Below are positions 5,027 through 22,738 of a stretch of 34,937 nucleotides of DNA, one piece after another. The stretch comes from Coriobacteriales bacterium (GTDB lineage: Bacteria > Actinomycetota > Coriobacteriia > Coriobacteriales > Atopobiaceae): NCBI GenBank assembly GCA_030533135.1, contig JAUNJR010000007.1:1-34937 (forward strand). The letters run 5' to 3'. A model generated the notes under the pieces. The model had not been told where the DNA came from and did no database searches. It saw only the letters and a program-made list of their open reading frames with translations. Numbering within the stretch: position 1 is the stretch's first letter; each line of letters begins with the position of its first letter. The position numbers and the translations under genes were made by a program.

Positions 5027-5045
5027 GTCGACAAAGGCTGTCGAC
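5027..5045. terminator. Weak hairpin between convergent operons
   Basis: Two copies of the palindrome GTCGAC (5027-5032 and 5040-5045) can pair across a seven-base loop in the 38-base gap between the GH25 gene and cobC. There is no T-run on either strand, so its role as a shared terminator is a guess. Confidence 0.25.
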
Positions 5046-6711: not shown

Positions 6712-6738
6712 GGCCTGCGCTCCTTCCACCACCACGCG

Positions 6739-7392: not shown

Positions 7393-8891
7393 AGCCCCTC
7401 CTCGATGATTCGGTAGATGAGGTCCATATCCATGCTCGAACGCACGCCATCGGCCAATATGTCGAGCTGGTGTGAGCGATAGGTAGCCATGTCAAGGAAG
7501 GGTGCGTCCTCCACGGTGAGACCGCGGCAGTCAAGCAGGGACTTGACCAGCGCTTGATTTGCGTCAGCACTATCAAAGATGCCATGGAGATAGCAGCCGT
7601 AGACGTTACCCGACTGACACCCGTCCTCGATGTAGCCCCTTTCCGTAGCCAAGCGCAGCAGGGGCAGCCCACCATCACGTATGGTTCTTCCCATATGGAT
7701 CTCATACCCCTGAACCGGACATCCAGCAAGCGAAGCAAGTGGCCCTTCAACACCTTGAAACGACCCCTCGACACGTGTCGTGCGCTTCTCAGTGCCAAAG
7801 GTGGTGTGTATCGGAAGCAAACCCATACCAGTCAGCTCTCCCCCGCCTTCCACGCCCTCAGGGTCCCTCACGGACAGGCCCAGCATCTGGTACCCCCCAC
7901 AGATACCCAGAATGGGCGTTCCAGAAGTCGCAAGCCGCGTGACCGCTGCCTCGAGCCCGCTTCTGCGCAGCCAGGTAAGGTCATTCATGGTTGCCTTGGT
8001 TCCAGGAATGATGACCAGGTCAGGGCGGCCAAGTTCTTGCGGGGCGGTAACGTAGCGCACGCTCACACTCGAAAGCGCGTCGAGTACGATGAAGTCGGTG
8101 AAGTTCGAGATTTTGGGAAGGCGTATAACCGCGATGTCAACAAGGGTGTCCCGTGCTCGTGACAGCAACCGCTCCGACATGCTGTCCTCGTCTTCGAGGT
8201 CCACGTCTAGGTAGGGCACAAGGCCCGCAACGGGCACCCCCATGCGCTCACGCAGGATGTCGAGCCCCTCGTCAAAGAGCGTTGGGTCTCCGCGAAACTT
8301 GTTCACGATCGAGGCCTTGACCATGCGTCGCTCATCCTCGTCCAAAAGCATCATAGTGCCGACGAGCTGGGCGAACACACCACCACGATCGATGTCTCCC
8401 ACCAGAAGCACAGGGGCGGAAGCCATCTTGGCCATGCCCATGTTGACGATGTCGTCGCGTTTGAGATTGAGCTCGACAGGACTGCCCGCACCTTCGATAA
8501 CGATGACGTCAAAGTCGGCAGCAAGCGCCTGATATGAGTCCCTGATGGTGTCTTTGAGCGAGCGCTTGAACGAGAAGTACTCGCGGGCCGGCATCGTGCC
8601 CAGCGGGACTCCTCGCACGACGACCTGGCTACCAACATCACTGGTAGGCTTGAGCAGCACGGGGTTCATGTCAACACGCGGTTCGATACCCGCTGCCTCA
8701 GCCTGCAGAGCCTGTGCGCGGCCCAATTCCAACCCATCTGGCGTAATGGCCGAATTCAACGCCATGTTCTGGGACTTGAAGGGGGCAACGCGCAGCCCAT
8801 CTTGGGAGAGCACGCGACAGAGCCCCGCCACGAGCAGGCTCTTTCCCACCCCCGACATGGTCCCTTGCACCATGATGGGCTTGGCGCTCAT
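7389..8891 (-). CDS. cbiP: Cobyric acid synthase (glutamine-hydrolysing)
   Basis: CbiP (CobQ) amidates the b, d, e and g side chains of adenosylcobyrinate a,c-diamide, using glutamine and ATP. The 500-residue protein has the N-terminal ATP-binding domain (GTMSGVGKS, residues 10-18; FKSQNMALNS, 38-47) and a C-terminal class I glutamine amidotransferase domain with the nucleophile Cys331 in LGICGGYQMLG. YEIHMGRT is the later family motif. ATGA overlaps join it to cobD upstream and cbiC downstream. No active-site residue appears to be missing. Confidence 0.96.
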   Translation of the reverse strand: MSAKPIMVQGTMSGVGKSLLVAGLCRVLSQDGLRVAPFKSQNMALNSAITPDGLELGRAQALQAEAAGIEPRVDMNPVLLKPTSDVGSQVVVRGVPLGTMPAREYFSFKRSLKDTIRDSYQALAADFDVIVIEGAGSPVELNLKRDDIVNMGMAKMASAPVLLVGDIDRGGVFAQLVGTMMLLDEDERRMVKASIVNKFRGDPTLFDEGLDILRERMGVPVAGLVPYLDVDLEDEDSMSERLLSRARDTLVDIAVIRLPKISNFTDFIVLDALSSVSVRYVTAPQELGRPDLVIIPGTKATMNDLTWLRRSGLEAAVTRLATSGTPILGICGGYQMLGLSVRDPEGVEGGGELTGMGLLPIHTTFGTEKRTTRVEGSFQGVEGPLASLAGCPVQGYEIHMGRTIRDGGLPLLRLATERGYIEDGCQSGNVYGCYLHGIFDSADANQALVKSLLDCRGLTVEDAPFLDMATYRSHQLDILADGVRSSMDMDLIYRIIEEGL

Positions 8892-9925
8892 CTGGCCACC
8901 TCCTCAAGCACCGCGATGAAGCGGTCGTTCTCCGCGGCTGTTCTTACCGCAATGCGATGCCAACGCTCGTCAAGCCCACGGAAATTAGCACACGAGCGCA
9001 CAAGTACGCCATGACTCAGGAAGGCATCGGTTAGATCTTCCCGCGCTTTCCAAAGAAGGTAGTTTACCTCCGACTCCACAACGCCCATCCCCGTTTCACG
9101 AAGCGTCATTGCAAGACGGGCGCGCTCATTCGCAATCAGATCGAGGCTTTGTTTGAGATAATCCGCAGGGTCTTTGAGGCAAGCAACCCCGGCGACCTGT
9201 GCGGGGACCGACACTGCCCACGGCTGTCCTGCCTCACGAAGGCGTTCAAGGAGGCTCTGGTTTGCCGTCAGCGCATAGCCAACGCGCAGGCCAGCGAGGG
9301 CAAATGTCTTGGTCAGCGCCTTGACAATGACAAGGTTGGGGAAGGCGGGGAGCAGGTCGTTGGAAGGACGTCCCTGTTCCGCAAGGTCGATGAAGCATTC
9401 GTCGAGGACCACGATCGCCCCGGCTTCGCGTGCACGCTCCAGCAACGCAACGATTGCGTCTCGTGTGACGCATCGCCCCGTGGGATTGTTGGGGTTGGCA
9501 ATGAACACGAGGTCAGTACCCTTGGTAAGAGCAGCTGCCATAGAGGATTCGAGGCCGAATCCGTCCACCTCGCTCAAATCATGGTACGTGACTTGAGCAC
9601 CAACCTGCGCAAGTGCCTGCTCGTAACCCAAATAGCACGGCGCATAGAGAAGTGCCTTGTGAGGACGTATGACTGTACAAAGGCGGGCAAAGGCATCGGT
9701 AGCCCCCGCGCATGCAAGGACTGATGACTCAGCCACGTCCTCGAAAGCGGCAATGGCGTGCGTCAGCTCAGTACACAGGGGGTCGGGATAGGAGGTGTAT
9801 TGGTCCACACAGGCCACGAGCGCTTCCCGTGCAGCGATGGGCATACCCATCGGGTTCAGGCTTGCCGAGAAGTCAAGAACACCAGGGTGGCGATAGATGT
9901 TACCCCCGTGCTCAAAGCGCTCCAT
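8888..9925 (-). CDS. cobD: L-threonine-O-3-phosphate decarboxylase (aminopropanol-phosphate synthesis)
   Basis: CobD makes (R)-1-amino-2-propanol phosphate for the corrin side arm. The 345-residue protein is a fold-type I PLP enzyme: FSASLNPMG at 19-27, NPNNPTG at 144-150, Asp175 in VLDECFIDL and the PLP lysine Lys206 in ALTKTFALAGLRVGY. Histidinol-phosphate aminotransferases (HisC) look alike. The FSASLNPMG start and the place between cbiB and cbiP favour CobD. It overlaps the end of cbiB by 14 bases and cbiP by four. The L-threonine kinase (PduX) that would supply its substrate is not in the window. Confidence 0.9.
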   Translation of the reverse strand: MERFEHGGNIYRHPGVLDFSASLNPMGMPIAAREALVACVDQYTSYPDPLCTELTHAIAAFEDVAESSVLACAGATDAFARLCTVIRPHKALLYAPCYLGYEQALAQVGAQVTYHDLSEVDGFGLESSMAAALTKGTDLVFIANPNNPTGRCVTRDAIVALLERAREAGAIVVLDECFIDLAEQGRPSNDLLPAFPNLVIVKALTKTFALAGLRVGYALTANQSLLERLREAGQPWAVSVPAQVAGVACLKDPADYLKQSLDLIANERARLAMTLRETGMGVVESEVNYLLWKAREDLTDAFLSHGVLVRSCANFRGLDERWHRIAVRTAAENDRFIAVLEEVAR

Positions 9926-10901
9926 GGAGCATCACCTCCCCAAACGGATACAAGACACGGGCAATCCCCACAGAGAGCACCAGCGCGGCCACGGAGGTCG
10001 CATAGAGCAGCCTAATTGCTGCGTGGATGTCTTTTGGTTCAATCGTCCTCAGGTCATCGCCTATGGTTGGTTTGTCAACAACCGCCCCAAAGTAACTCGC
10101 AGGACCTGCAAGCTGCACACCCAGCGCACCTGCGCAAGCGGCTTCGGGATGGCCCGCATTGGGTGATGAGTGTCTCTTGCCGTCACGCTTCAGGATGCGC
10201 CATGCACCAGCCCCATCAAGCCCGATCAGCGGTGCCACAAGACACATGAGCACCGCCGTGAGGCGTGCAGGCAACCAATTGCACACGTCGTCAAGATGTG
10301 CAGCCGCGGTGCCAAAGAAGCGATACCGCTCGTTCTTGTAGCCGACCATCGAATCCATGGTGTTCACCGCTTTGTAGAAGACCCCCGCAACAGGACCTCC
10401 CACCGCCATGAAGAGCAATGGGGCGACCATCCCATCCGAGGCATTCTCGGCCACGGTCTCGACAGCCGCCCGAGTGACGCCAGCTTCGTCCAATGCCTGT
10501 GTGTCGCGACCGACAATCATCGAAACTGCGCGACGTGCTGCTTCGAGGCCCTCGTCAACCAGTGCGTGATAGACGTGCATGGCCTCCTTGCCCAACTGAC
10601 GAGCGGCTACCATCTGATAACAGACGAAGACTTCGACAGCGATTCCCAACGGGGCGGCGATTGCCCACGCGAGGCGAATGACCGCCCAAGCACAGCCGCA
10701 TGCAACAGATGTGACCACAAGTACCAAGGCAACGCCCGCCGCCCGTTCTCCATAGGGTGTAGACGGGAAGATGCCCCGCAGCGTCTGTTCGCACCACGCG
10801 ATGAGCGACCCAATGAAACGAATGATGTGAGGCATCCTATACGGGTCACCCAAGAAGGCATCAAGCAGACAGGCGCAGACGAGGATTGCGGCGCGCATCA
10901 T
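9912..10901 (-). CDS. cbiB: Adenosylcobinamide-phosphate synthase
   Basis: CbiB joins aminopropanol (phosphate) to adenosylcobyric acid in the membrane. I place the start at the ATG pair at 10901-10896, three bases downstream of the cbiA stop codon. This gives 329 residues; upstream in-frame codons lie inside cbiA and would add an unlikely arginine- and cysteine-rich tail. LLDAFLGDPYRMPH near residues 10-24 is the family start signature. DEAGVTRAAVETVAENASDG and GAWRILKRDGKRHSSPNAG are conserved loops, and the rest is largely hydrophobic with several membrane helices. Confidence 0.93.
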   Translation of the reverse strand: MMRAAILVCACLLDAFLGDPYRMPHIIRFIGSLIAWCEQTLRGIFPSTPYGERAAGVALVLVVTSVACGCAWAVIRLAWAIAAPLGIAVEVFVCYQMVAARQLGKEAMHVYHALVDEGLEAARRAVSMIVGRDTQALDEAGVTRAAVETVAENASDGMVAPLLFMAVGGPVAGVFYKAVNTMDSMVGYKNERYRFFGTAAAHLDDVCNWLPARLTAVLMCLVAPLIGLDGAGAWRILKRDGKRHSSPNAGHPEAACAGALGVQLAGPASYFGAVVDKPTIGDDLRTIEPKDIHAAIRLLYATSVAALVLSVGIARVLYPFGEVMLHGAL

Positions 10902-10903
10902 GA

Positions 10904-12307
10904 CTACCACGCCCCTTCGCCCATATCGGCAGGGGCGCCCAATCCGTATGCGACACAGGCATCCACGAAACGCTTGGCAGCAACGGGGCTTCCGCAGAGG
11001 TATAGATGCGGGAAACCCGCATAGAGCGTTCCAGTAGCTTGCACGCAATCCCAGGAACGCTCACTCTGGGGCTTGCGTGCATGGAACGCGTTGCCAGGAT
11101 GCTCGCTTTCCCAGTAATGAAACTCATGCGCCGCCAGCCGTTCACCCTTATGAGCAAGCAAGCTTTCGCCGCATGCCTCCAAGGTGACATACCCAAAGCG
11201 CCCCAAGCGCTCCGTACGGAATGCCCTCCCAGTCACAGCGCCCACCATAGGCCAGTCCTGTCCCTGCATATCCTCAAGCGTCTCATGGAGATAGAGGAAA
11301 CCACCACATTCGGCAATGGTTGGCATACCCGATGCAATCGCGACCCGTAGCTGCGTGCGAAGCGCCGCGTTTGCGCCGAGTTCACGTGCATGGAGCTCTG
11401 GGTACCCACCGCCAAGGTAGAGCCCACACGTCCCCGTGGGAAGCTCTTGGTCGCGCAAGGGTGAAAACGGCACGACATGGGCACCCAAACGCTCAAGCAA
11501 ATCAAGGGAATCGCGGTAATAAAAGCTGAAGGCGTCATCATGTGCCACCGCAATGACCGGCTTGTCAGGCACTGGCTCCGGCAGTTCACGTGGTCGATAG
11601 ACGAGTGGTTGGGCACCCCGCGCATGGGCAAGGATTGCCTCGACATCAAGAGTCGTGCGCAGCGTCTCTGCAAGCGCATCAATGCGCGTACGGAAATCCG
11701 CGATCTCCTCCGCACGGACCAGGCCCAGATGGCGACTCGGAAGGCTTGCCTCCTCTATCGGTGGCATAAAACCGAACACGGGCAACCCAGTCTCCCGCTC
11801 GACCGCCTCCTTGAGCAGCGGATAGCGCGCAGCGCTCACGCGATTCAGGACAACGCCCACAACCTGCGAGGGACTGCGAAAGCGAGCGAACCCCGCCACC
11901 TCGGCAGCGACTGAAAGCGAGCGAGCGCGGGCGTCCACCACGAGTATCACAGGCGATTTGGTGACGCAAGCAACATCGTACGACGAGGCATCAGTACCCA
12001 GGGCAATACCATCGTAGTAGCCCATAACCCCCTCGATGACGGTGACGTCGGCACCCTTGGCGCCCTCGGCCAGAAGCTCGCACACAAGATCGGCGTTGCC
12101 CAGGAAGAGGTCGAGGTTGCGCGAGGGCACGCCTAATACCCGCTCGTGGAAGGTCGGGTCTATGAAATCAGGCCCCACCTTGCCAGCAGCAACCGACAGC
12201 CCCGCGTCCTTAAGCACCTGCAGGAGGCCGCAGGTAAACGTGGTCTTTCCTGAGCCGCTTGCTGTTCCGGCCACGATGATGCGAGGCGCCTCAGCACGTA
12301 TCGCCAT
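10904..12307 (-). CDS. cbiA: Cobyrinate a,c-diamide synthase
   Basis: CbiA amidates the a and c carboxylates of cob(II)yrinate with glutamine and ATP. The start at 12307 has AAGGAGG five bases upstream, so the 32 extra upstream in-frame residues are rejected and the protein is 467 residues, as usual. The P-loop is AGTASGSGKTT (13-23), KVGPDFIDP follows at 43-51, and the glutamine amidotransferase nucleophile is Cys334 in IAECGGFLYL. FHYWE near the end belongs to that domain. It overlaps cbiET by 17 bases. Together with CbiP it performs all six side-chain amidations. Confidence 0.95.
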   Translation of the reverse strand: MAIRAEAPRIIVAGTASGSGKTTFTCGLLQVLKDAGLSVAAGKVGPDFIDPTFHERVLGVPSRNLDLFLGNADLVCELLAEGAKGADVTVIEGVMGYYDGIALGTDASSYDVACVTKSPVILVVDARARSLSVAAEVAGFARFRSPSQVVGVVLNRVSAARYPLLKEAVERETGLPVFGFMPPIEEASLPSRHLGLVRAEEIADFRTRIDALAETLRTTLDVEAILAHARGAQPLVYRPRELPEPVPDKPVIAVAHDDAFSFYYRDSLDLLERLGAHVVPFSPLRDQELPTGTCGLYLGGGYPELHARELGANAALRTQLRVAIASGMPTIAECGGFLYLHETLEDMQGQDWPMVGAVTGRAFRTERLGRFGYVTLEACGESLLAHKGERLAAHEFHYWESEHPGNAFHARKPQSERSWDCVQATGTLYAGFPHLYLCGSPVAAKRFVDACVAYGLGAPADMGEGAW

Positions 12308-13538
12308 GCGCACCTCCTTGCGCATCACCTGTCGCAGGACCATCAGCACAGATAAGATAAACGGGGTTGTTGGCCTCCATGAGGTGGTAGTTACCAACTG
12401 CACGTGCTTTCGAGATGGCTACCTGTGTGATATCCACATGAACGAGCCCCAGCTCAAGGGCAAGGCTTGTCATTGTGGAAAGCGTCTCGATGGTGACAGC
12501 CGGTACACAGATACGCACTGCGGGATTTGCCCTGATCACGGTGCGGAGGATCTCCTCGAGCTCCCCTGCTGACCCTCCCACAAAGACGCGGTCAGGCGCT
12601 GGTGCCTTGCACAACGCCTCTGGGGCCATGCCCGGAACAACCGAGACGTTCGTGAGCCCAAACGCCGAGGCGTTCCGCTGGATGAGCCCGAGTGCTTCAT
12701 CATTGCGCTCAATCGCAAAAACCTGGCCCTGCCACGCTGCCCGCGCCAGCTCCACCGTAACCGATCCCGTTCCCGCACCGATGTCCCACACGATATCGGT
12801 CGGATGGACACGCAGCTTACAGACGGCAAGCTCACGCACCTCCTCCTTCGTCATGGGAACGTTGCCCCGGATAAAGGCATCATCAGGCAGCCAGGGAGAA
12901 GAGACGCCTGGACTCAAGGGCGCATCATTCTCGACCAGAAGGGCCGCGAGCGGCTCGAATCGCATGCCCGCAAGCTGACGCGCCGTCCCTTGCACGATGC
13001 GTTCATCATCGTAGGACAGACGCTCCCCCACGAAGACGTGGGCCTCCCCAAGCCCACGCTCCACAAGCGTGGAACAGACGCCCTCGGCGGATGAGGTGCC
13101 ACCTACCAGGAAAAACGAACGACGGTGTGACTGAACGATGCCAGCGACATCACACAACCGACCATGGGCTGACGCTGCGAAGACGTCCTGCCAGGTGGTC
13201 TTCAGGCGCGCACAGAAATACGAGAGCGTCGAGATGCCTGGCAGCACCTCGACCCGCATCTTGTCCAAGAGCGGGAGGAGCGACGTAGCACCGCTATAGA
13301 AGCCCACGTCACCGCTCATAACGACGCTCGCAACCGTAACGTCGGAGCCTTCTAGCAGCCCAGCTATTGCCGAAGCACTGACGAGCGGTACCGTGCGCAC
13401 CGCAAGGTCGGAAAGGCCCTCGAGCAGGCGCGGTGCACCAATCACGAGCTCGCTTTCTGCGAGCGCCTCGCGCGCCTCGATCGTAAGCGTCTTGGGGTTC
13501 CCCATGCCCATCCCAATGACAAAGACTTTAGAGACCAT
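12291..13538 (-). CDS. cbiET: Fused cobalt-precorrin-7 C5-methyltransferase / cobalt-precorrin-6B C15-methyltransferase (decarboxylating)
   Basis: This 415-residue fusion combines CbiE (residues 1 to about 205) and CbiT (about 215 to 400), the arrangement called CobL in aerobic pathways. The CbiE part starts with VFVIGMGMGNP and has the SAM-binding MSGDVGFYS loop (74-82). The CbiT part has PMTKEEVRELAVCKL and the class I methyltransferase glycine motif WDIGAGTGSVTVE (251-263). It methylates C5 and C15 and removes the acetate carboxylate at C12. The end overlaps cbiA by 17 bases; the start overlaps cbiJ by 11. The fusion is known in other bacteria. Confidence 0.94.
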   Translation of the reverse strand: MVSKVFVIGMGMGNPKTLTIEAREALAESELVIGAPRLLEGLSDLAVRTVPLVSASAIAGLLEGSDVTVASVVMSGDVGFYSGATSLLPLLDKMRVEVLPGISTLSYFCARLKTTWQDVFAASAHGRLCDVAGIVQSHRRSFFLVGGTSSAEGVCSTLVERGLGEAHVFVGERLSYDDERIVQGTARQLAGMRFEPLAALLVENDAPLSPGVSSPWLPDDAFIRGNVPMTKEEVRELAVCKLRVHPTDIVWDIGAGTGSVTVELARAAWQGQVFAIERNDEALGLIQRNASAFGLTNVSVVPGMAPEALCKAPAPDRVFVGGSAGELEEILRTVIRANPAVRICVPAVTIETLSTMTSLALELGLVHVDITQVAISKARAVGNYHLMEANNPVYLICADGPATGDAQGGAHGDTC

Positions 13539-14286
13539 AGCGTTCCTCCAGCGCGATCAAAGCCTCTTCGAATGTGAGCCCTTCCTCCTCGCACGGTCGA
13601 CTAATAACGACGAGGCCAATCCCGCAATCCTCGGCTGCCCGTATCTTCTCTTCAAACCCACCCGAGGCGCCCGACTGCTTGGTCACCAACCACGAAATGT
13701 CCAGCTGCCGTATGAGCGCCTTGTTGAGGTCCTCGGAACAGGGGCCTTGCATCGCGATGACGTGGCTCGTGGGAATCCCGAGCTTATCAGCATGATCGAG
13801 CGCTGCCATGACAGGAAGGATGCGAATGAAGAGTCGATCGCGGTAGTCTGCAAGCGCTTCGACATACGTCGCAAGGTCCTTGCTCCCCGTGGTCAGCAAA
13901 ATGTTGCCCGGCACACGCGAGAGGTGGGCAGCAGCCTCGTGAGCATCCCTGACTGATACCCAGGTGCCCTCCTGCGCTGGGTCACGGACGACGCGAACGA
14001 CGTCCTTCCCATAGGCCTGTGCCAGTTCAGCAATGCTTTGCGAGATATGAGTGGCATACGGATGCGTGGCGTCAACCACACATTCAAAGTCGTGGCTCTC
14101 CATGAGGTGTCGCTTATCGTCTTGTGACAGCGGTCCACGAAGCACTGTCACGTGGGAACCGCCCTCAAGAAGACGTGCGCCATAATCCGTTGCCGTACAG
14201 GCAACAACCTTGCACGTGCCACGCGCCTCAAGCCACTCGACTATCTGACGCCCCTCGACGGTACCCCCAAAGACCAAGACCTCCAT
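13528..14286 (-). CDS. cbiJ: Cobalt-precorrin-6A reductase
   Basis: CbiJ (CobK type) reduces cobalt-precorrin-6A to 6B with a nicotinamide cofactor. The 252-residue protein opens with MEVLVFGGTVEGR, the nucleotide-binding start typical of the family. It continues with CVVDATHPYATHIS, the strongly conserved substrate-binding segment, and LTTGSKDL and KQSGASGGFEEKI in the C-terminal half. It abuts cbiH without any spacer and overlaps cbiET by 11 bases. Confidence 0.94.
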   Translation of the reverse strand: MEVLVFGGTVEGRQIVEWLEARGTCKVVACTATDYGARLLEGGSHVTVLRGPLSQDDKRHLMESHDFECVVDATHPYATHISQSIAELAQAYGKDVVRVVRDPAQEGTWVSVRDAHEAAAHLSRVPGNILLTTGSKDLATYVEALADYRDRLFIRILPVMAALDHADKLGIPTSHVIAMQGPCSEDLNKALIRQLDISWLVTKQSGASGGFEEKIRAAEDCGIGLVVISRPCEEEGLTFEEALIALEERYGL

Positions 14287-15021
14287 TTAAGCCCCTTCCT
14301 GGGCATATCCACGCGGGGTGACCATGCGCCCAGACACGACGCGCGTCATGGAGTTACCCACGAAGACGGAGGTAAGCATGTCCACCTGCGTATTCCTCAG
14401 CTCCCCGAGCGTGAGAATATGCGATGACTGTCCCTCACGACCGATGTTGCGCACATACCCACAAACGGTCAGTGGGCTGCGATGGGAAAGCAGGATGTCG
14501 CAGGCGCGGCGAAGATGGTCACGACGCCCATGAGAGGACGGATTGTACAGAACGATGCAAAAATCTGCCTCCGCAGCCGCCACAAGCCGTCGCTCGATAG
14601 TCTCCCAGGGAGTCATTAAGTCAGAGAGCGAGATGGTGCACCAATCGTGCATGAGCGGAGCGCCAAGCACCGCCGCACCGCCATTTGCAGCCGTGACCCC
14701 CGCCACGATGTCAACGTCAACCCCGGGGTACTCCTCAGCCAGCTGAAGAAGCAATCCGGCCATTCCATAGACACCGGGATCTCCCGAGCAAACCAAGGCA
14801 ACGCGCTGACCCGCAGCCGCTCGATCGAGCGCCATGCGACAGCGCTCGACCTCGGAGCGCATGGGCGTAGCAAGGAACTCCTTGTCGGGATAGGCATCGC
14901 GCACGAGCTCAATATAGGTTGTGTAGCCAACGATGAGATCTGCCTCCTCGAGGGCCGTACGCGCCTTGCCTGTCAGGTCGTCATGGGCACCAGGACCCAA
15001 TCCTACGCAGGTCAGCCGCAT
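14287..15021 (-). CDS. cbiH: Cobalt-precorrin-3B C17-methyltransferase
   Basis: CbiH methylates C17 and drives ring contraction to cobalt-precorrin-4. I start at the ATG at 15021 (MRLTCVGLGPG), with AAGGAGG four bases upstream, giving 244 residues. The SAM tetrapyrrole methylase signatures are GLGPG (7-11), VCSGDPGVYGMA and VAGVTAANGGAAVLGAP, and YNPSSHGRRDHL is typical of CbiH/CobJ. It lacks the C-terminal extension found in some CbiH proteins. The start overlaps the end of cbiFG by ten bases. Confidence 0.94.
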   Translation of the reverse strand: MRLTCVGLGPGAHDDLTGKARTALEEADLIVGYTTYIELVRDAYPDKEFLATPMRSEVERCRMALDRAAAGQRVALVCSGDPGVYGMAGLLLQLAEEYPGVDVDIVAGVTAANGGAAVLGAPLMHDWCTISLSDLMTPWETIERRLVAAAEADFCIVLYNPSSHGRRDHLRRACDILLSHRSPLTVCGYVRNIGREGQSSHILTLGELRNTQVDMLTSVFVGNSMTRVVSGRMVTPRGYAQEGA

Positions 15022-16856
15022 TGTGCCTCCTTGTCTCTCGACCATCCCACAAAGGAGAGGCGTGTTTCGTGCAGAGCGATTGCTACGGTGATACCGGGAA
15101 AGCGACGTCGCCCCAACACGAGCGTGCCGCCCGTTGCGCAGGCAGCTCGTTCGCAGACGTTATCGACTCCTACGGTCTCCTTTACGAAGGCAGACGATGA
15201 GAAGCTACCGGGAACAGCCGCGAGCTGTTCGGCACTTTGGAACCGCACAGGAACACCAAGGCGCTTCCCCAGCTCGAGGATGCCCAACTCGTCTTGCTTG
15301 ACATCAATGGTCACCAGCTCCCGCACGGCCTCACGTGCAAGATGGGCTTCGGAAAGCGCCACTTCAAGTGCCGCCTCGAGCTCGTCTACTGCCGTACCCC
15401 GCTTGCAACCGATGCCGACCGTCGCGACACGAGGGACCAAGCGCAACGTTGCCGCAAAAGGCCTTAAGGCCGCATCAAGCGAGATGGAGATGCCTACCTC
15501 GCAGCTGTCTGCTTCTTCTCCGCATGCAAGGCCCTGCGGGAGTGGGCCCTCAAGGGGGATCGTACTGGTCAAGCCAACCGTTTTGCCTTCAAGCAATGCC
15601 GTCGCGACGTGGCGGGCCTCGACACGATCGAGCAAGGCGAGACCTTGCCGCGCTGCCCACTCATCGACGGCGAAGACGCCGTTGACGTCCGTAGCCGTAG
15701 TGATGACGGGCTGTGCCCCACAGAGCCCCGCAATGGTGCGGGCCAAGGCATTTGCACCACCAACGTGGCCCGACAACAACGGAGTAACAAAGCGCGCCGT
15801 CTCATCGATGCAGATTACCGCTGGATCACGGAACTTATCAGTCGCATATGGCGCAATGGTGCGTACCGCGATTCCGCAGGCAGAGACGAAGATGAGCGCG
15901 TCAGAGCGCGAGAAGGCGTCACGAGCCCAATCGGAAAGGTTGCCGAATGGGCTCACCCCGTTGGTTGCAAGCCGCATTGGGGCAGATAGGTCAACCACAT
16001 GGCCTTGCCCCGCTAACCCCTCGGCCAACTGCCGGGCTAGCGAGAGACCGCGCGCCGTGAACGCAACGACGCTCACACTTTGGGTACGCTGTTGATTCAC
16101 GGCGCCATGAGCGGCACGATACCCATGGCTAAACTCGGGGTCGTACAGCTTGGAGCGCTCTCCGTGACCGTCGAGAGCGTCTCCCACAATGACCAGTGCG
16201 GTCTTCGTAATGCCGTGAGTTTTGGCGCAGTCGGCGAGCGTTGCGACCGTGCAACGATACACGGCCTCATCTGGCCACGTAGCGCGATAGACAATGGCCG
16301 CGGGCGTCTGAGGCGCATAGCCACCAGCCAACAGCTCCGTCTGCGCTTTGGCAAGCAATCCAGTTGAGAGAAAGAGAGCCATCGTGCACCCGTGGGCAGC
16401 CAAGAAGCTCAGACGCTCGCGATCCGGCACGGGCGTACGCCCCGCAGCACGTGTGACGATGAGCGACTGCGACACACCTGGCAGCGTATATTCAGTCTTA
16501 AGCGCAGCGGCAGCACCGAAAAGCGACGAGACGCCAGGCACGACGTCATAGTCAATGCCCACAGCGTCGAGGGCCGTCATCTGCTCCGCAATGGCACCAT
16601 AGAGCGACGGGTCTCCTGTATGCAGGCGCACGCACGCAAGCCCTCGCTCCTGTGCATCGCGCATGACCTGGACGGTCTCCTCGAGCGTCATGGATGCGGA
16701 GTCGAAGACCGTGCACGTTGGCTTGCGAAACTCGAGCAGCTCGGGGTTCACAAGGGAACCCGCATAGATGATGACGTCTGCTTCCTTCAGGAGGCGCGCG
16801 CCGCGTACGGTTATAAGGTCGGGTGCTCCGGGCCCCGCTCCAACGAAATGAATCAT
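15012..16856 (-). CDS. cbiFG: Fused cobalt-precorrin-4 C11-methyltransferase and cobalt-precorrin-5A hydrolase
   Basis: This is a 614-residue two-domain protein. Residues 1 to about 245 are CbiF: IHFVGAGPGAPDLITVRG, the SAM loop LHTGDPSLYGAI and VPGVSSLFGAAAAL. After a short linker, residues about 255-614 are CbiG, with VSACGIAVRTIAPY, TPLLSGHVGGANALAR and VGIGCKRGTAVDELEAAL. CbiF methylates C11; CbiG opens the delta-lactone and releases acetaldehyde in the anaerobic route, so joining two consecutive steps makes sense for passing an unstable intermediate. It shares ATGA with cbiD and overlaps cbiH by ten bases. The presence of CbiG marks the pathway as oxygen-independent. Confidence 0.94.
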   Translation of the reverse strand: MIHFVGAGPGAPDLITVRGARLLKEADVIIYAGSLVNPELLEFRKPTCTVFDSASMTLEETVQVMRDAQERGLACVRLHTGDPSLYGAIAEQMTALDAVGIDYDVVPGVSSLFGAAAALKTEYTLPGVSQSLIVTRAAGRTPVPDRERLSFLAAHGCTMALFLSTGLLAKAQTELLAGGYAPQTPAAIVYRATWPDEAVYRCTVATLADCAKTHGITKTALVIVGDALDGHGERSKLYDPEFSHGYRAAHGAVNQQRTQSVSVVAFTARGLSLARQLAEGLAGQGHVVDLSAPMRLATNGVSPFGNLSDWARDAFSRSDALIFVSACGIAVRTIAPYATDKFRDPAVICIDETARFVTPLLSGHVGGANALARTIAGLCGAQPVITTATDVNGVFAVDEWAARQGLALLDRVEARHVATALLEGKTVGLTSTIPLEGPLPQGLACGEEADSCEVGISISLDAALRPFAATLRLVPRVATVGIGCKRGTAVDELEAALEVALSEAHLAREAVRELVTIDVKQDELGILELGKRLGVPVRFQSAEQLAAVPGSFSSSAFVKETVGVDNVCERAACATGGTLVLGRRRFPGITVAIALHETRLSFVGWSRDKEAQCG

Positions 16857-18025
16857 CGCGTCTCCCCCGCTCCTTCGTCCAACCGCAAACCGTGACGGTG
16901 GAGCTCCATAAGCGTTTCCGCGCCAGCCGTCATGCCCAGCGTTCCCCGCTTGTTAGAGAACATCACGGCTTCAACCTGCAAGGATTCGCCTGCACGATGC
17001 GAAAGCACCGCACCCAGACGGTCGACCATCGTCTGCAGGGCGGACGTGAGCAGTCCATGTTCATCAAGCACATCGAGAGCCGCATCGGTCGTCGCAGCAC
17101 CCATGATGAGCGCGATGTCTTGAGCAGTGGCCCCCGCCAACGCAGCATGGGCAGCAAGTATCTCCATGCGGCAGTCAGCCACGCGTGAGTGCGTGTTCAT
17201 GATGCCACCCGCAACTTTGACCAGCTTGCCGACATGACCCACTAAAAGGAGCGTTCTAAACCCCAGGAGCACCGCCTCGTCCAGAACGGCGCCCACGTAG
17301 TTCGAGCAGCTCACCATGCGATCATCAGAAAGACCGAGGCTCTGGACGGCAAAGTCATGGCCGTAGTTACCAGGCACGACCAGCACGTCATTGACGCCCG
17401 TGGCACGCTTCACCCGAAGCTCGAGCTTGAGTGACGAGACAAGCGCTTCCTCGCTCATGGGACGAACGATGCCACTCGTTCCCAGGACCGAGATGCCACC
17501 CTCTATCCCAAGGCGTGGGTTAAAGGTTCGCTGGGCAAGCACCACTCCCTCGGGAATGGAGATCTCCACCACAAGGCCACCCTGATACCCATGCGCTCGC
17601 GAAGCCTCCTGTGCCTCCTGGGTAATCATGGTTCGTGGCACCGCATTGATGGCAGCAGCGCCAACCGGCTGATCAAGCCCAGGTCGTGTCACACGCCCAA
17701 CCCCCTCGCCACCAAGAATGGTGACGCCAGGATTCTCCGCAAGCGATACGCGAGCAACGACCAGCACGCCGTCCGTCACATCCGGGTCATCACCTGCATC
17801 TTTCCGAACGGCACAGCGAGCCCACGTGTTTCCACGCTCAGCCTCTTCCACCTCTACCAACACATCGATGCCCGCAGGGACGCTCATGACCACCGAAGGA
17901 ACCTCGACACCGCCCAACAGGAGCTCAGCTGCCGCACGCGTCGCGGCTGCGGCACAGGTTCCCGTCGTGTATCCACAACGCAAAAGCTTTCCGCCTGTGC
18001 TTATGTACTCGTCAAGTTGATGCAC
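16853..18025 (-). CDS. cbiD: Cobalt-precorrin-5B C1-methyltransferase
   Basis: CbiD adds the C1 methyl group in the anaerobic pathway. I start at the GTG at 18025, which has AAGGAGG five to six bases upstream; earlier in-frame starts lie in the ATPase gene. This gives 390 residues. The signature LLRCGYTTGTCAAAATRAA lies at 14-32; later blocks are VPGNYGHDFA, LVGHVGKLVKVAGGIMNTHS and MFSNKRG. It overlaps the ATPase gene by 14 bases and cbiFG by four, which couples importer and biosynthesis genes in one transcript. Confidence 0.94.
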   Translation of the reverse strand: MHQLDEYISTGGKLLRCGYTTGTCAAAATRAAAELLLGGVEVPSVVMSVPAGIDVLVEVEEAERGNTWARCAVRKDAGDDPDVTDGVLVVARVSLAENPGVTILGGEGVGRVTRPGLDQPVGAAAINAVPRTMITQEAQEASRAHGYQGGLVVEISIPEGVVLAQRTFNPRLGIEGGISVLGTSGIVRPMSEEALVSSLKLELRVKRATGVNDVLVVPGNYGHDFAVQSLGLSDDRMVSCSNYVGAVLDEAVLLGFRTLLLVGHVGKLVKVAGGIMNTHSRVADCRMEILAAHAALAGATAQDIALIMGAATTDAALDVLDEHGLLTSALQTMVDRLGAVLSHRAGESLQVEAVMFSNKRGTLGMTAGAETLMELHRHGLRLDEGAGETR

Positions 18026-18848
18026 GGGGACCTCCTTCCCGTGTGGCCACAGGTTGTGTGCCCATAAAAAGAGCCACATCACCCGTAAGGGAATCAAAGG
18101 TCCCCGGCTTCAGGTCGTACAGATCGTCTATGACAGTGGGGACAAAGACCTCGGCAGGGGCCCCTTGCAAGGCCACTCCCCCGTCCTTCACACAGACAAC
18201 CCAGTCAGAGATGCGCCGCGCCAGGGGCAGTTCGTGCATGGTCATGACGATGGCCACGCCTTGCTCGTGGGCAAGGTGGTGAAGCACGTCCAACAGCTCA
18301 ATCTGATAGCGAATGTCCAAATGACTCGTGGGCTCATCCAGAACCATGACGCGCGGCTCTTGGCAGATGGCGCGCGCCAGCATGACACGCTGGCGCTGTC
18401 CGTCGGAGAGCTGCATGAAATCACGATCTCGTAGGTCCCAGACCTTGACGAGCTCCATGGCTGCACGAACCTTCCGCAAATCTTCGCGTGTGGACACGCC
18501 AAGATGTCCCGTGTAGGGATAGCGTCCTGCCTCGACGATATCCGCGCAGGTCAACAGCTCGGTGCGCACGCGGTCAGTCAAGAGCACCGACATCAGGCGT
18601 GAGCGCCTCGTGTTGTCCAGTCGCTGTAGGTCCTCCCCGCAGAGCGACACACTGCCAGCAAGAGGACGAAGATAACCCGCAAACGTCTTGAGCATGGTCG
18701 ACTTGCCTGCACCGTTTGGGCCGATGAGCGAGACGATGCTTCCCGAAAGGGCCGAGAAGCTTATGCCCTCGACCACACGTGTGTGACCATACCCGACCGT
18801 CAAGTCACGAGCTTCGAGAAGCACTTCCTGTTGCACTCGCTGTGTCAT
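18012..18848 (-). CDS. ABC importer ATPase (BtuD/FepC type)
   Basis: This 278-residue ATPase powers the importer encoded by the two upstream genes. Walker A is GPNGAGKST (43-51), the signature LSDGQRQRV is at 147-155, Walker B VMVLDEP is at 167-173 followed by TSHLD, and the switch histidine is in TMHEL. The sequence groups with cobalamin, haem and iron-siderophore importers; those substrates cannot be told apart from the ATPase. The start at 18848 has GGGAGGT upstream and lies two bases after the permease stop. The location directly before cbiD suggests a corrinoid, tetrapyrrole or cobalt-related substrate. Confidence 0.9.
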   Translation of the reverse strand: MTQRVQQEVLLEARDLTVGYGHTRVVEGISFSALSGSIVSLIGPNGAGKSTMLKTFAGYLRPLAGSVSLCGEDLQRLDNTRRSRLMSVLLTDRVRTELLTCADIVEAGRYPYTGHLGVSTREDLRKVRAAMELVKVWDLRDRDFMQLSDGQRQRVMLARAICQEPRVMVLDEPTSHLDIRYQIELLDVLHHLAHEQGVAIVMTMHELPLARRISDWVVCVKDGGVALQGAPAEVFVPTVIDDLYDLKPGTFDSLTGDVALFMGTQPVATREGGPRAST

Positions 18849-18850
18849 GG

Positions 18851-19921
18851 TCACACCTCCCGCCCTTTTCGACTGAGGAGAACCCAGATGACGATGGGGG
18901 CTCCAAAAATGGCTGTGACCGTGGAAACCGACATCTCGATTGGCGCAAAGAGGCTCCGTGCCAAGAGATCGCAAAGCAGACAGGCGACTGAACCAGCTAG
19001 AAACGTCACCGGTACCACCAACAATGGCTTTGACGTACCCAGAAGTCGACGGGCGACGTGAGGTACGGCAACCCCAACAAAACTGATGGGACCCGCAAAG
19101 GCTGTGACTGACGCTGCCAAGACGCTGGAGAGCAGGATGACGACGATTCTGAACGTGGGCACGTCTACACCCACGCTCTGGGCATAGGACTCGCCCAACT
19201 GGAAGGCTCCCAGCGGTTTGGAGATAAGGAAAACACAGGCACTTGCCACTGCCACGACCACAGTTATTGCAACCACCTGTTCAGCGTTGATGCCAGAGAA
19301 GCTTCCCTGCGACCAGTTTCTGAGGTTTGCAATATTGGCGTCGCTTGCAAACGTCACCAAGAGATCGGTTGCCGCACTGCAGATGTAGCCAATCATCACG
19401 CCTGCAATGACGAGGGTCCCCGCTGACCGAACGTGTCGCGAGATTACCAGAACGGCTGCCATCACCGCCAATGACCCCATGAACGCAGCAAGCATCGACA
19501 TCCACGAGGTCATGATCGCGACATCACCCACTACCATAATCATGACAAAAGCGACCGCGAGCTTGGCTCCGTTCGAGATCCCCAAGACGTAGGGGCCAGC
19601 AATGGGATTGGAAAAAAGCGTTTGGAGAAGCAGGCCGGACAACGCAAGCGCACCACCCAGAAGCGCCGCGGCAAGCAACCGCGGAAGACGGATGTTCCAG
19701 ATGACTTGGTAGGCCGTCTCGCCACGATGTGCCCCCAATAGAATGGGGACTATCTCATCCAGAGGTACCCTCACACTGCCAAGACAGAGGTTTGCCGCAA
19801 GCGCAAGGAGCAGAGAAGCGACGAGCAGGATGATTACCCATCGCGCACGGACCACACGACGAGGGTCGTGCACTGACGCTTGAGGCTGGCCTGTACGCGT
19901 CTCGCCCTCATGCATGGTCAT
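18851..19921 (-). CDS. ABC importer permease (FecCD/BtuC type)
   Basis: This 356-residue membrane protein belongs to the FecCD family (PF01032). After a charged leader (1-28) there are about nine or ten hydrophobic helices. Family landmarks are GSVRVPLDEI near the start, WNIRLPRLLAAALLGGALAL, NPIAGPYVLGISNGAKLAVA, and FAGPISFVGVAVPHVARRLL before the last helices. The start at 19921 overlaps the binding-protein stop as ATGA and has GGAGG five bases upstream. It forms the membrane channel of the importer, presumably as a homodimer because only one permease gene is present. Confidence 0.92.
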   Translation of the reverse strand: MTMHEGETRTGQPQASVHDPRRVVRARWVIILLVASLLLALAANLCLGSVRVPLDEIVPILLGAHRGETAYQVIWNIRLPRLLAAALLGGALALSGLLLQTLFSNPIAGPYVLGISNGAKLAVAFVMIMVVGDVAIMTSWMSMLAAFMGSLAVMAAVLVISRHVRSAGTLVIAGVMIGYICSAATDLLVTFASDANIANLRNWSQGSFSGINAEQVVAITVVVAVASACVFLISKPLGAFQLGESYAQSVGVDVPTFRIVVILLSSVLAASVTAFAGPISFVGVAVPHVARRLLGTSKPLLVVPVTFLAGSVACLLCDLLARSLFAPIEMSVSTVTAIFGAPIVIWVLLSRKGREV

Positions 19922-21132
19922 GAGAGCCTCCGAAAGAACGTCAAGGGCTCGGTCGTGTTGCACAGCACTTGGTTGAGGTCCGCGATGATGCCACCTGACT
20001 GGAGCATTTGTTGATACATGTTTTGCTCGGTGACCCAGACCTCTCCCTCTTGAACTGCCTTGAAGTCTCTGAAGAGCTCGTTTCTTGCCAGCAAGTCACC
20101 AAGGGATTCAACGCCACCATCAATTGACGAGTTATAGATGAGCACGTCAGCATCCTTCGCCGTCGCATAAAAGCGCTCCATCTGAATGGTCACGCTGCTT
20201 GACCCCGCCTGTGCCTTACCGAGGTCTGCGAAGGCATAGGTGCCTCCCGCCTGCTCGATCATCTTGGTCACGTAGTCGCCAGGCCTCCGCACCACCGCCG
20301 CGCCCGAGCTGTTGAGGTAGAAGAAGGCGACCGTCTTTCCCGAGGGAGTCTGCAGGAGCGACCCCACCTGGCCCACCTGCTCTTGGAAGAGCTCCTCGGC
20401 GCGATCGCTCCTATCAAGAAGCGCGCCGTAGAGCTTGATCCATTCAGCTCGTCCCAGCGGCTCTGGCTCATAGCTTGAAAGCTCGGTAAGCACAGGAATC
20501 CCCAGCTCGATGAGCTTCTCACGCACCTCGGGCGTGTGGTTGATCATGGTGCTCTCGACGGCCAGCTGCACCCCCTGTGAAAGCAGTAGCTCATAGTCAG
20601 GCGAGCGATACTTGCCCCCATAGACAATCTGGCCAGAGTCCATAGCCTCACGCGCGGAGGCGATGGACCAGTCGTCACGTTCGATACCCGAGACGGCGAT
20701 AGCATCAAGCGCGTCGAGCGCGTCGAACAGACACATGGAATCACTAGCAGCGAGGTAGATGGTGTCGACAGGCTGACGGAGGATGGTGATGTCATCCGCC
20801 AGCCCCTCAGGCACCTCAGCGCCATCTGGAACGATGAGGTAACGATTTCCATCCATGAGGCACGCAAGCTGATAGCCGCCCTCGAAGTAGTCGAGGGTGA
20901 AGCACTGCGCGTAAGCAAGCTCAAGCTGACCAGTCGGCTCCCACCCATTGCCGAGGTCGGCATGGTGGTAGTTGTCGACGAGCGTCGTGCTTCCCTGGGT
21001 GGCAGGAGTCGACGCCGCGTCAAACTGGGAACCACTGCCTGCGGAGCCGCTCCCACAACCCATTCCCGCAAAGGCGAGGCAGCAGGTCATCACGAGGGAA
21101 AGGAAGAGACGGCGGCGCCTCATGGAATCCAT
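19918..21132 (-). CDS. ABC importer substrate-binding lipoprotein (BtuF/FecB-like)
   Basis: This 404-residue lipoprotein has a signal peptide ending near AGMGC (a somewhat loose lipobox) and a Ser/Gly-rich linker, followed by a helical-backbone binding protein of the PF01497 type. VDTIYLAASDSMCLFDALDA, AVSGIERDDW, VQLAVESTMINHTPEV, LGIPVLTELSSYEPEPLGRA and DADVLIYNSSIDGGVESL are the recognisable strands and hinge. An iron-siderophore, haem or corrinoid ligand would fit. The surrounding cbi genes favour a corrinoid or tetrapyrrole, but this is inference. The start is chosen at the ATG at 21132; an ATG nine bases later is also possible and the ribosome binding site is weak. ATGA links it to the permease gene. 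Confidence 0.87.
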   Translation of the reverse strand: MDSMRRRRLFLSLVMTCCLAFAGMGCGSGSAGSGSQFDAASTPATQGSTTLVDNYHHADLGNGWEPTGQLELAYAQCFTLDYFEGGYQLACLMDGNRYLIVPDGAEVPEGLADDITILRQPVDTIYLAASDSMCLFDALDALDAIAVSGIERDDWSIASAREAMDSGQIVYGGKYRSPDYELLLSQGVQLAVESTMINHTPEVREKLIELGIPVLTELSSYEPEPLGRAEWIKLYGALLDRSDRAEELFQEQVGQVGSLLQTPSGKTVAFFYLNSSGAAVVRRPGDYVTKMIEQAGGTYAFADLGKAQAGSSSVTIQMERFYATAKDADVLIYNSSIDGGVESLGDLLARNELFRDFKAVQEGEVWVTEQNMYQQMLQSGGIIADLNQVLCNTTEPLTFFRRLS

Positions 21133-21141
21133 CACGGACGC

Positions 21142-21570
21142 CTAAGCTGCATCTGACGGAGAATGGAACACGATGGTGTGGTCATACCATGTGTCGCGGC
21201 GCTGCCCAAATGCGGCGATGGCCAGTTCCTCGTCAAGGGTGGCAACCGGAAAGTCAAACGTATACTTCCCCTCGTCATTGAGGTGGTAAGTGTAGACCTC
21301 GTCCTCGGGAGCCGTGGCAGCATCCTCCGCCGTCCCAAAGTAGAGCTTTGAGAAGCCCTCGCCAGGAAGGGTTAGGGACACCGCGTATGTCCCGTCCTCC
21401 ACCGTAAGTGTGCAGGAATCAGAGCGGAACATGCTCGAGTCAGTCTCCGCCTCAATCTGATAGGTGCCGTCAGTAAGGCCACCCTTACTCTTCTGCGCAC
21501 AACTAACCAAGAAGCAAGAGACACACAGAATCAAGGCCGCAAGAAACGCACATGCTTTACGACGGTTCAT
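21142..21570 (-). CDS. Small 'DGTY' domain lipoprotein, function unknown
   Basis: This 142-residue lipoprotein has a signal peptide with lipobox LVSC (Cys24) and one small domain: LTDGTYQIEAETDSSMF, CTLTVEDGTYAVSLTLPG, then FSKLYFGTAEDA and a closing WYDHTIVFH. The order of motifs matches the membrane-anchored protein of the cobU operon: DGTY-VE, a G-K/T-AxxxI/L strand, then a tyrosine-rich turn, so I treat the two as one family. AAGGAG lies six bases before the ATG at 21570. It sits between cbiK and the importer binding protein. A likely role is to present a metal or tetrapyrrole to the importer. That is inference; no enzymatic motif is visible. Confidence 0.72.
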   Translation of the reverse strand: MNRRKACAFLAALILCVSCFLVSCAQKSKGGLTDGTYQIEAETDSSMFRSDSCTLTVEDGTYAVSLTLPGEGFSKLYFGTAEDAATAPEDEVYTYHLNDEGKYTFDFPVATLDEELAIAAFGQRRDTWYDHTIVFHSPSDAA

Positions 21571-21598
21571 ATTCTTCTCCTTGGAGGTAACTCCGTGG

Positions 21599-21618
21599 CG
21601 GGACATCTCAGCGTCCCG
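21599..21618 (-). other. Small hairpin in the cbiK-lipoprotein gap
   Basis: A six-base stem CGGGAC/GTCCCG with an eight-base loop lies in the 59-base gap between cbiK and the DGTY lipoprotein gene, the widest gap in the operon. It has no T-run. It could be a processing or mild attenuation site; that is a guess. Confidence 0.25.
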
Positions 21619-21629
21619 ACACGTTGACA

Positions 21630-22541
21630 TTACAGGCTGTCGATAGCGTCCTGAACGTGGCGAACGTAGATGTCGTCGATAGTATCCAGCTGACCAAGAC
21701 CTTCGATAACGCATGTAACTTCGAAACCCGCAGCGGTCATGATGGAGACGAAGGACTCGGGATCCTCGGGATCGGCCATGTCATTGTTGGCATGGTCACC
21801 GGCAACCACCATAAGCGGACGAAGAACGGCCTTGGTGTAGCCAGCAGCCTTGGCAGCAGCGGCCACATCATCAAAAGTAGGTTCGGCCTCGACCGTCGCC
21901 ACGAAGTAGTTGTTGTATCCCAAATCCGCAAAGACCTGCTGCATCTGGGCATAAATCACATTGGACTCAGCTTCGGTACCGTGGCCCATGAGGCAGATGG
22001 CCGTCTCATCGTCCTCGTAACGCGCCATAGCCGCCTTTATGGCTTCTGCCACGGCTACCTGGTCATCCTTCGTCGTCAGAAGCGGTGCGCCAAGCGCGCA
22101 CTTTTCAAAGGATGCGGCATAGTTCTCAAGCGACTTCTTGATGTCGGTGTACTCGAAGCCGTCCATCAGGTGGGTGGGCTGAACGATGACCTCAGTGACG
22201 CCCTCGGCCACGAGTTTGTCCATGGCCTCCTCGAAGTTGTCAATGTGACGACCGGTGTCCTTCTCGATGTGGTCGATGATGATCTGTGCCGTAAAGGCGC
22301 GGCGAACGTCGTAATCGGCAAAAGCCTCACGGATATCGGACTCGATGGCACCAATGGTCGCATGACGGCTGCTCGCGTAGCTGGTGCCAAAGCTCGTCAC
22401 CAGGATGACCGGCTTGGCGGGCTTTGCCTCTACCGCTGCTTGGGGAGCCGAGGCGCAGGCAGTCAAGCCGACAAGCGCGGCAGCAGCGCCTCCGAGCACG
22501 GAGCCCATAAACGAACGACGGGAAAGCGATGAATTGGACAT
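21630..22541 (-). CDS. cbiK: Sirohydrochlorin cobaltochelatase-like protein with lipoprotein/Tat-type export signal
   Basis: CbiK (PF06180) inserts Co2+ into sirohydrochlorin. This 303-residue protein keeps the metal-binding histidines in their usual motifs: VQPTHLMDG (His124), LMGHGT (His187) and VVAGDHANNDM (His250). Residues 1-29 are extra: SRRSFMG (7-13) matches the twin-arginine motif, a hydrophobic stretch follows, and LTAC (Cys29) is a lipobox. It is therefore predicted to be exported and lipid-anchored, not cytoplasmic like Salmonella CbiK. A periplasmic CbiK is known in Desulfovibrio vulgaris. It is the first gene after the riboswitch-like leader, next to a lipoprotein and an importer. 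Its real substrate may be another tetrapyrrole or just a metal. The ribosome binding site is inside a hairpin. Confidence 0.88.
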   Translation of the reverse strand: MSNSSLSRRSFMGSVLGGAAAALVGLTACASAPQAAVEAKPAKPVILVTSFGTSYASSRHATIGAIESDIREAFADYDVRRAFTAQIIIDHIEKDTGRHIDNFEEAMDKLVAEGVTEVIVQPTHLMDGFEYTDIKKSLENYAASFEKCALGAPLLTTKDDQVAVAEAIKAAMARYEDDETAICLMGHGTEAESNVIYAQMQQVFADLGYNNYFVATVEAEPTFDDVAAAAKAAGYTKAVLRPLMVVAGDHANNDMADPEDPESFVSIMTAAGFEVTCVIEGLGQLDTIDDIYVRHVQDAIDSL

Positions 22542-22547
22542 ATGGTC

Positions 22548-22584
22548 CCTACCCTTTCTGGCACAAGGCCATGATGAGGGTAGG
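22548..22584 (-). promoter_or_regulatory. Hairpin covering the cbiK ribosome binding site (expression platform)
   Basis: CCTACCCT and AGGGTAGG (22577-22584 and 22548-22555) form a perfect eight-base outer stem. Inside it TGGC/GCCA pair around a CTTGT loop. The 3' arm holds the purine-rich ribosome binding region seven bases before the cbiK ATG. Formation would block translation initiation, which suits a cobalamin riboswitch acting on translation. Confidence 0.65.
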
Positions 22585-22614
22585 CAACAGAGGCGGTGGC
22601 GTCCGCCCATAACT

Positions 22615-22738
22615 CAGACTCCGCCTAGACCATCTGTCTGGCGGAACACAATGAGCCTTGAAGTACAGCGACGACTGATCCGGAGTTGAACCGGAATCCT
22701 TTCAGTAGGCATCACAGCTCGATAGCCGTACCCTCGGT
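22615..22738 (-). ncRNA. Candidate cobalamin riboswitch (compact variant)
   Basis: The minus-strand leader of cbiK contains GGATTCCGGTTCAACTCCGG followed by ATCAGTCGTCGCTGTA (22699-22664). This parallels the conserved core of cobalamin riboswitches (GGGAA, then CCGGTGAAAATCCGG, then a CNG-CCGC-CTGTA stretch). Downstream, 22644-22621 forms a hairpin reading CCGCCAGACAGATGGTCTAG and then GCGG. It occupies the place of the B12 box but resembles the AGCCAGGAGACCTGCC consensus only partly. The usual CCACTG and GGGAAGG blocks between them are missing, so this would be a short variant. It precedes a 17-gene cobalamin operon and an RBS-blocking hairpin. The boundaries are approximate. Confidence 0.65.

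Follow-up and report, generated by a model that had tools for sequence, protein, structure and literature searches.

A surface-anchored CbiK chelatase, a NEAT-fold lipoprotein, and a FecCD-type importer as a candidate route for an external ring into the cobamide pathway of Atopobiaceae-like gut bacteria

The window analyzed here covers positions 1 to 34,937 of contig JAUNJR010000007.1 (assembly GCA_030533135.1), from an uncultured ruminant-gut Atopobiaceae-like bacterium represented by a metagenome-assembled genome (MAG) that is 87% complete. Its cobamide genes form one long minus-strand run, from 22541 down to 5045, which is opened by cbiK and continues with the gene of a lipoprotein that we call DGTY, a binding protein, a FecCD permease, and an ATP-binding cassette (ABC) ATPase, followed by cbiD, cbiF-G, cbiH, cbiJ, cbiE-T, cbiA, cbiB, cobD, cbiP, cbiC, and cobT. 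Our best reading of the comparative sequence evidence, which we hold to be rather probable, is that the first five genes would salvage an external sirohydrochlorin-type ring, load it with cobalt at the cell surface, and import it as Co-sirohydrochlorin, in keeping with an earlier suggestion, in a first-pass annotation of this DNA, that metal is loaded on or stripped from an external tetrapyrrole before import. We propose a model in which a scavenged ring already methylated at C2 and C7 (most simply sirohydrochlorin, possibly siroheme) would be bound outside the cell by the NEAT-fold lipoprotein DGTY. Lipid-anchored CbiK would then insert cobalt into the bound ring or exchange its metal, and the lipoprotein binding protein with the FecCD/ATPase importer would bring Co-sirohydrochlorin (cobalt-factor II) into the cell for conversion to corrin by CbiL, CbiH, CbiF, CbiG, CbiD, CbiJ, CbiET, CbiC, and CbiA.

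The cbiK gene (21630 to 22541, minus strand) encodes an exported lipoprotein of 303 residues that matches PF06180 with 251.9 bits against a cutoff of 26.2 (E value, 8.6e-75); no second PF06180 match exists in the genome of the window. Its ATG at 22541 is preceded by AAAGGGTAGGG, and the protein starts with MSNSSLSRRSFMGSVLGGAAAALVGLTAC, which contains a twin-arginine motif and a lipobox. This Tat-type (twin-arginine translocation) lipoprotein leader (SRRSFMG ... LTA-C29; 22458 to 22541, minus strand) was judged by direct reading of the sequence, and an [S/T]RRxF-type motif with a lipobox is present in the CbiK of all nine genus relatives. A leaderless start is not credible, because the later in-frame starts fall inside the leader (Met12) or within the first strand of the chelatase domain (a GTG), and no usable start codon lies beyond the leader. 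The claims of the first-pass annotation that CbiK is exported, on the strength of its SRRSFMG and LTAC motifs, and that it is the only cobalt chelatase in the window are borne out, and in related genomes, too, the protein is the exported form. In a broader set of 80 homologues, a regular expression found the lipobox in 66, and several of the remainder carry type-I-like signals.

The active site is retained: H187 and H250 are the counterparts of His145 and His207, the catalytic pair of Salmonella CbiK (numbering from PMC7689651), and both are invariant in our alignment. The only PDB matches of the protein are 1qgo, 9b86 (FetB), and 2xvx (CbiKP). The normal CbiK substrate is sirohydrochlorin, which is converted to cobalt-factor II and next methylated by CbiL (PMC7242693). 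The window protein misses the NCBIfam equivalog cutoff for sirohydrochlorin cobaltochelatase (196.5 versus 400 bits), and our tree groups the NEAT-linked CbiKs in a clade (99/93) that excludes FetB, CbiKP, and Salmonella CbiK, the outgroup branches being long.

The second gene (21142 to 21570, minus strand) encodes DGTY, a lipoprotein of 142 residues whose divergent domain is, according to structure prediction, a NEAT (hemophore) fold. The AlphaFold2 model has a predicted local distance difference test score (pLDDT) of about 90 to 97 across the domain, and the PDB matches listed by Foldseek for this model are all NEAT-family heme binders (best E value, 2e-5). A search of the PDB with the family profile also ranked a NEAT domain first, weakly, and the search with the single sequence gave no match. 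For the DGTY family (59 members), NEAT is the commonest Pfam match (best E value, 9e-6), at scores under the gathering cutoff of 32.8 bits (13.9 for the window protein and 26.6 for the best family member). The SxxMF lip of NEAT domains is retained. The heme-ligand Tyr of the NEAT YxxxY motif is absent from all 59 members; every one of them has Lys or Arg at its position, which precedes the invariant Tyr129 by four residues, and further basic residues stand at 49, 124, and 131. The exchange of Tyr for Lys/Arg and the surrounding basic residues would suit a polycarboxylate ring without an axial Tyr, such as sirohydrochlorin. A second DGTY/NEAT-like subtype (GGSGRA ... WSSxxYDxM) was also seen in the same modules, beside the first or replacing it (our loci L139:13516-14229, L163:8755-9237, and L069:11444-11704).

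The binding protein (19918 to 21135, minus strand; PF01497, E value of 3e-28) is a lipoprotein of class III. Its AlphaFold2 model (mean pLDDT, 93.9) finds its best fold matches in the heme-binding protein 3nu1/3md9 and then in iron-binding proteins of such importers, with BtuF in sixth place; by sequence, a search of the PDB gave no relative. The model suggests a tetrapyrrole-class fold, which is no proof of the ligand. The FecCD/BtuC-type permease (18851 to 19921, minus strand; PF01032, E value of 1e-77, 261 bits) has BtuC as its best NCBIfam model, below the equivalog cutoff (205 versus 334 bits), and the ABC ATPase (18012 to 18848, minus strand) matches PF00005 (E value, 2e-28). The starts at 19921 and 18848 are the most likely ones for permease and ATPase, rather than the upstream TTG/GTG codons. 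The first-pass annotation was correct in describing the four genes after cbiK as a lipoprotein plus a complete importer in one run with the corrin genes: they lie on the same strand and run into cbiD.

These predicted folds invite a different reading, heme-iron acquisition, in which the NEAT protein would catch heme, surface CbiK would remove or swap the metal, an activity proposed for IhtB/FetB, and the importer would take the iron or the porphyrin, with the B12 operon merely a convenient location. The NEAT fold of DGTY, the heme-type fold of the binding protein, the presence of FetB among the PDB matches of CbiK, and the Iht model in the literature all speak for it. The loss of the iron-ligand Tyr throughout the DGTY family speaks against it, as do the genomic and regulatory associations described below, and we regard it as unlikely. 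The similarity of the permease to BtuC, together with the B12 riboswitches of some relatives, would likewise fit the salvage of cobamides or cobinamide, with an ordinary BtuFCD importer that takes up complete corrinoids and to which CbiK and DGTY would be accessory. This reading leaves unexplained both an exported chelatase with an intact active site and the link of the module with the ring genes and with HemC loss, and we give it a somewhat smaller chance than heme-iron acquisition.

The salvage of a sirohydrochlorin-type ring is supported by the lack of ring synthesis in the genus. Family searches of the genomes, on which all absence calls rest, detected HemC (porphobilinogen deaminase) in 11 of 14 control genomes and in none of the 18 genus genomes, 10 of which are more than 90% complete. 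SUMT gave no match above the cutoff in the genus, where the best matches are CbiF, and precorrin-2 dehydrogenase (PF13241) was rejected as well, with weak matches only, two of which were checked and proved TrkA-like. With neither HemC nor SUMT, the genus is predicted to be unable to make sirohydrochlorin, which sharpens the earlier statement that an exported chelatase would be out of reach of the cytoplasmic pool. The product of SUMT is precorrin-2. According to pathway knowledge, the missing SUMT also means that uroporphyrin would be of no help and that the entering ring must already carry two methyl groups. Despite these gaps, the genus retains the corrin-ring pathway from CbiL to CbiP, CbiL being encoded elsewhere in the genomes of relatives (two loci at 186 and 193 bits; cutoff, 163). 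Of the 12 CbiD-positive genomes of the genus, 10 encode lipoprotein CbiK, the two exceptions being incomplete, versus none of the 6 CbiD-negative ones, and the nine that carry it besides the window's genome all share the order CbiK-DGTY-binding protein-FecCD-ATPase-CbiD.

A hidden cytosolic cobalt chelatase was considered and rejected. A second, leaderless chelatase, for which the first-pass annotation suggested looking elsewhere in this genome, was not found there, and the family search revealed no separate CbiX (class II chelatase) in the genus. A leaderless second CbiK-like protein does exist in four genus genomes (L024, L025, L026, and L027), all without HemC, with 98 to 99% identity; it goes with sulfite reductase and not with CbiD. 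Its gene directly adjoins asrABC, together with genes for an IsdE-like binding protein, a FecCD permease, and an ATPase (L027:3069-9612), and asrA, asrB, and asrC (anaerobic sulfite reductase) all score above their NCBIfam cutoffs. AsrC is a siroheme enzyme. This locus looks like a parallel siroheme supply line and supports, without proving, ring uptake by these bacteria.

The module is not restricted to this genus. At least 590 relatives were found when 84,980 species genomes were scanned, and the counts given here are from the best 80, which belong to Coriobacteriia, Clostridia, one Spirochaetaceae, and one Alistipes. Beside CbiK, these loci encode DGTY (79), the binding protein (73), and FecCD (67); all five parts are found in 61 of the 80, and some other loci end at a contig edge. 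The co-occurrence of lipoprotein CbiK with DGTY, raised in the first-pass annotation, is real, and the arrangement is not rare, being present in dozens of gut genomes. CbiK is fused to DGTY in 7 loci, and DGTY to the binding protein in 8. Such a NEAT-fold partner, even fused to the chelatase, points to a tetrapyrrole ligand and tells against simple cobalt scavenging, in which exported CbiK would only catch Co2+, the importer would take cobalt or a cobalt chelate, and the ring would enter elsewhere. CbiK does bind cobalt in known cases, and no cobalt importer is seen among the operon genes; nevertheless, large chelates are the cargo of class III FecCD importers, and the searches of the window's genome revealed no further chelatase that could serve in the cytosol. 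We consider this explanation the most improbable of those weighed here.

The distribution of the module follows the corrin pathway and, to a large extent, the loss of ring synthesis. CbiD is present in 48 of 50 module genomes, a bond which, with the CbiD association within the genus, speaks against heme-iron acquisition. HemC is absent from 35 of these 50 genomes, 33 of which also lack SUMT, and corrin-ring genes adjoin the module in 25 of the 35 HemC-negative versus 1 of the 15 HemC-positive module genomes. As a background, CbiD was found in 64 of 332 near-complete Coriobacteriia genomes, 58 of them outside the window's genus and 40 of these without HemC. With two or more module parts next to cbiD counted as presence, the module was found outside the genus in 35 of the 40 HemC-negative versus 2 of the 18 HemC-positive genomes. 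Counted by genus, the window's own included, the figures are 9 of 13 HemC-negative versus 2 of 11 HemC-positive (Fisher P = 0.02). Eubacterium infirmum (L063) is an exception in its own right: CbiK, DGTY, a cobalamin riboswitch, and ring genes stand together with no importer genes adjoining, although HemC and SUMT are both encoded in this genome. We also encountered cbiK in records labeled as phage: in "Listeria phage" records (H5 to H8) and, there with DGTY and importer genes, in two "Bacteriophage sp." records (L038 and L039; MT836329.1 and MT835897.1). A phage origin was rejected, as these unannotated records, of which two have the same gene order, are probably bacterial contigs in a phage collection.

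Several points weigh against surface cobalt loading of a salvaged ring. FetB, the nearest solved lipoprotein homologue, has been reported in a review as active on protoporphyrin with Mn, and the binding protein is nearer to heme binders than to BtuF, which leaves its ligand unfixed. HemC and SUMT are both present in 15 of the 50 module genomes, so that the module does not strictly replace ring synthesis. No CbiL was seen in the MAG of the window, which is 87% complete, and the loss of early genes was judged on HemC and SUMT. Finally, the genomes compared are phylogenetically non-independent, one genus providing 19 of the 40 HemC-negative Coriobacteriia.

Regulation gives a further indication. 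Seven relatives were examined for a cobalamin riboswitch, and four carry a good one, which immediately precedes CbiK in L063, L071, and L078 and lies upstream of the importer genes in L065; this again disfavors heme-iron acquisition. The Rfam cobalamin riboswitch (RF00174) gave no match at any threshold in the window and none in seven genus loci, and a cobalamin riboswitch in the window was rejected in favor of a look-alike leader. This 5' leader RNA (22545 to 22732, minus strand), for which 10 genus leaders were aligned and a consensus fold derived, has a GGUAC...GUACU stem around two hairpins, one of which bears a cobalamin-riboswitch-like UCCGGUUCAACUCCGGA loop (TTCAACTCC across the genus leaders), and a further hairpin covers the cbiK ribosome-binding site. 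The consensus fold has 45 pairs, 5 with compensatory change, and is highly conserved. Among the loci compared, the leader RNA occurs upstream of this operon only. As no Rfam family matches it, its identity as a riboswitch is ours to infer, and it may belong to a diverged cobalamin-riboswitch class.

Downstream of the module, all on the minus strand, lie CbiD (16853 to 18061; PF01888, 317.7 bits), CbiF-CbiG (15012 to 16856; PF00590 plus CbiG_N/mid/C), and, from profile matches, CbiH, CbiJ, and CbiE-CbiT (12291 to 15045), followed by the remaining cobamide pathway (5045 to 12295), also from profile matches, with CbiA, CbiB, CobD, CbiP, CbiC, CobT, and a CobC-like phosphatase. CbiF-CbiG and CbiE-CbiT (12291 to 13538) are single fused genes in the window, and CbiF is a separate open frame in several relatives.

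If the proposed salvage is true, it would explain how a corrin pathway is supplied in bacteria that cannot synthesize the ring themselves, a question already raised by Porphyromonas gingivalis and the tetrapyrrole-precursor salvagers. It would also place a biosynthetic metal insertion outside the cell and give NEAT-fold proteins a non-heme ligand; sirohydrochlorin or siroheme would be traded among gut microbes, and many genomes scored as B12 makers would depend on a neighbor. The most far-reaching form of this reading, with cobalt inserted outside the cell into a ring made by others, a NEAT-type sirohydrochlorin binder, a dedicated Co-sirohydrochlorin importer, and a late-ring economy widespread in gut bacteria, has in our estimate an even chance of being right. 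Some HemC-negative strains that carry the module are in culture, for example Ellagibacter isourolithinifaciens DSM 104140, and the question is open to direct test.

Several known systems share parts of this arrangement. The searchable literature, with most subscription papers outside the search, yielded no description of a NEAT/CbiK/B12 module, in line with the first-pass annotation, which considered the system uncharacterized and cited periplasmic CbiK of Desulfovibrio vulgaris; it had missed the closest precedent, discussed last. D. vulgaris CbiKP (2xvx) is an exported CbiK with the same His pair; to judge from a cited title, however, that genome has a second CbiK, no NEAT protein is known with CbiKP, and CbiKP falls outside the NEAT-linked clade. 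The NEAT hemophores IsdX1, IsdX2, and IsdC share with DGTY the fold and the SxxMF-like lip, whereas DGTY has Lys/Arg in place of the iron-ligand Tyr and is located in B12 operons. The type II importers BtuFCD and HmuTUV have the same types of binding protein, permease, and ATPase, but the window importer stays under the NCBIfam equivalog cutoffs and pairs with an exported chelatase. The tetrapyrrole-precursor salvagers of Shelton et al. (PMC6461909) keep the corrin ring and later genes and miss the early ones, as in the genus studied here; the accessible text of that paper tests the salvage of 5-aminolevulinic acid only and names no uptake route for late rings.

The closest precedent is the Iht system of P. 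gingivalis (IhtB/FetB with IhtA, IhtC, IhtD, and IhtE), where a lipoprotein CbiK homologue lies beside a FecBCD-type importer (IhtCDE), as in the window. FetB/IhtB has been discussed as a heme dechelatase or an Mn-chelatase, and P. gingivalis is reported, in PMC6461909 citing Roper 2000, to lack the steps to precorrin-2 and yet to have a functional corrin pathway. Iht has an outer-membrane TonB receptor, none being present among the annotated genes of the window operon. No NEAT partner is described for Iht, which is discussed for heme/Mn-porphyrin, and FetB stands outside the NEAT-linked CbiK clade, on long branches. What is new in the present system is that CbiK has a NEAT partner, that it stands in a B12 operon, and that its presence is linked with missing HemC and SUMT.

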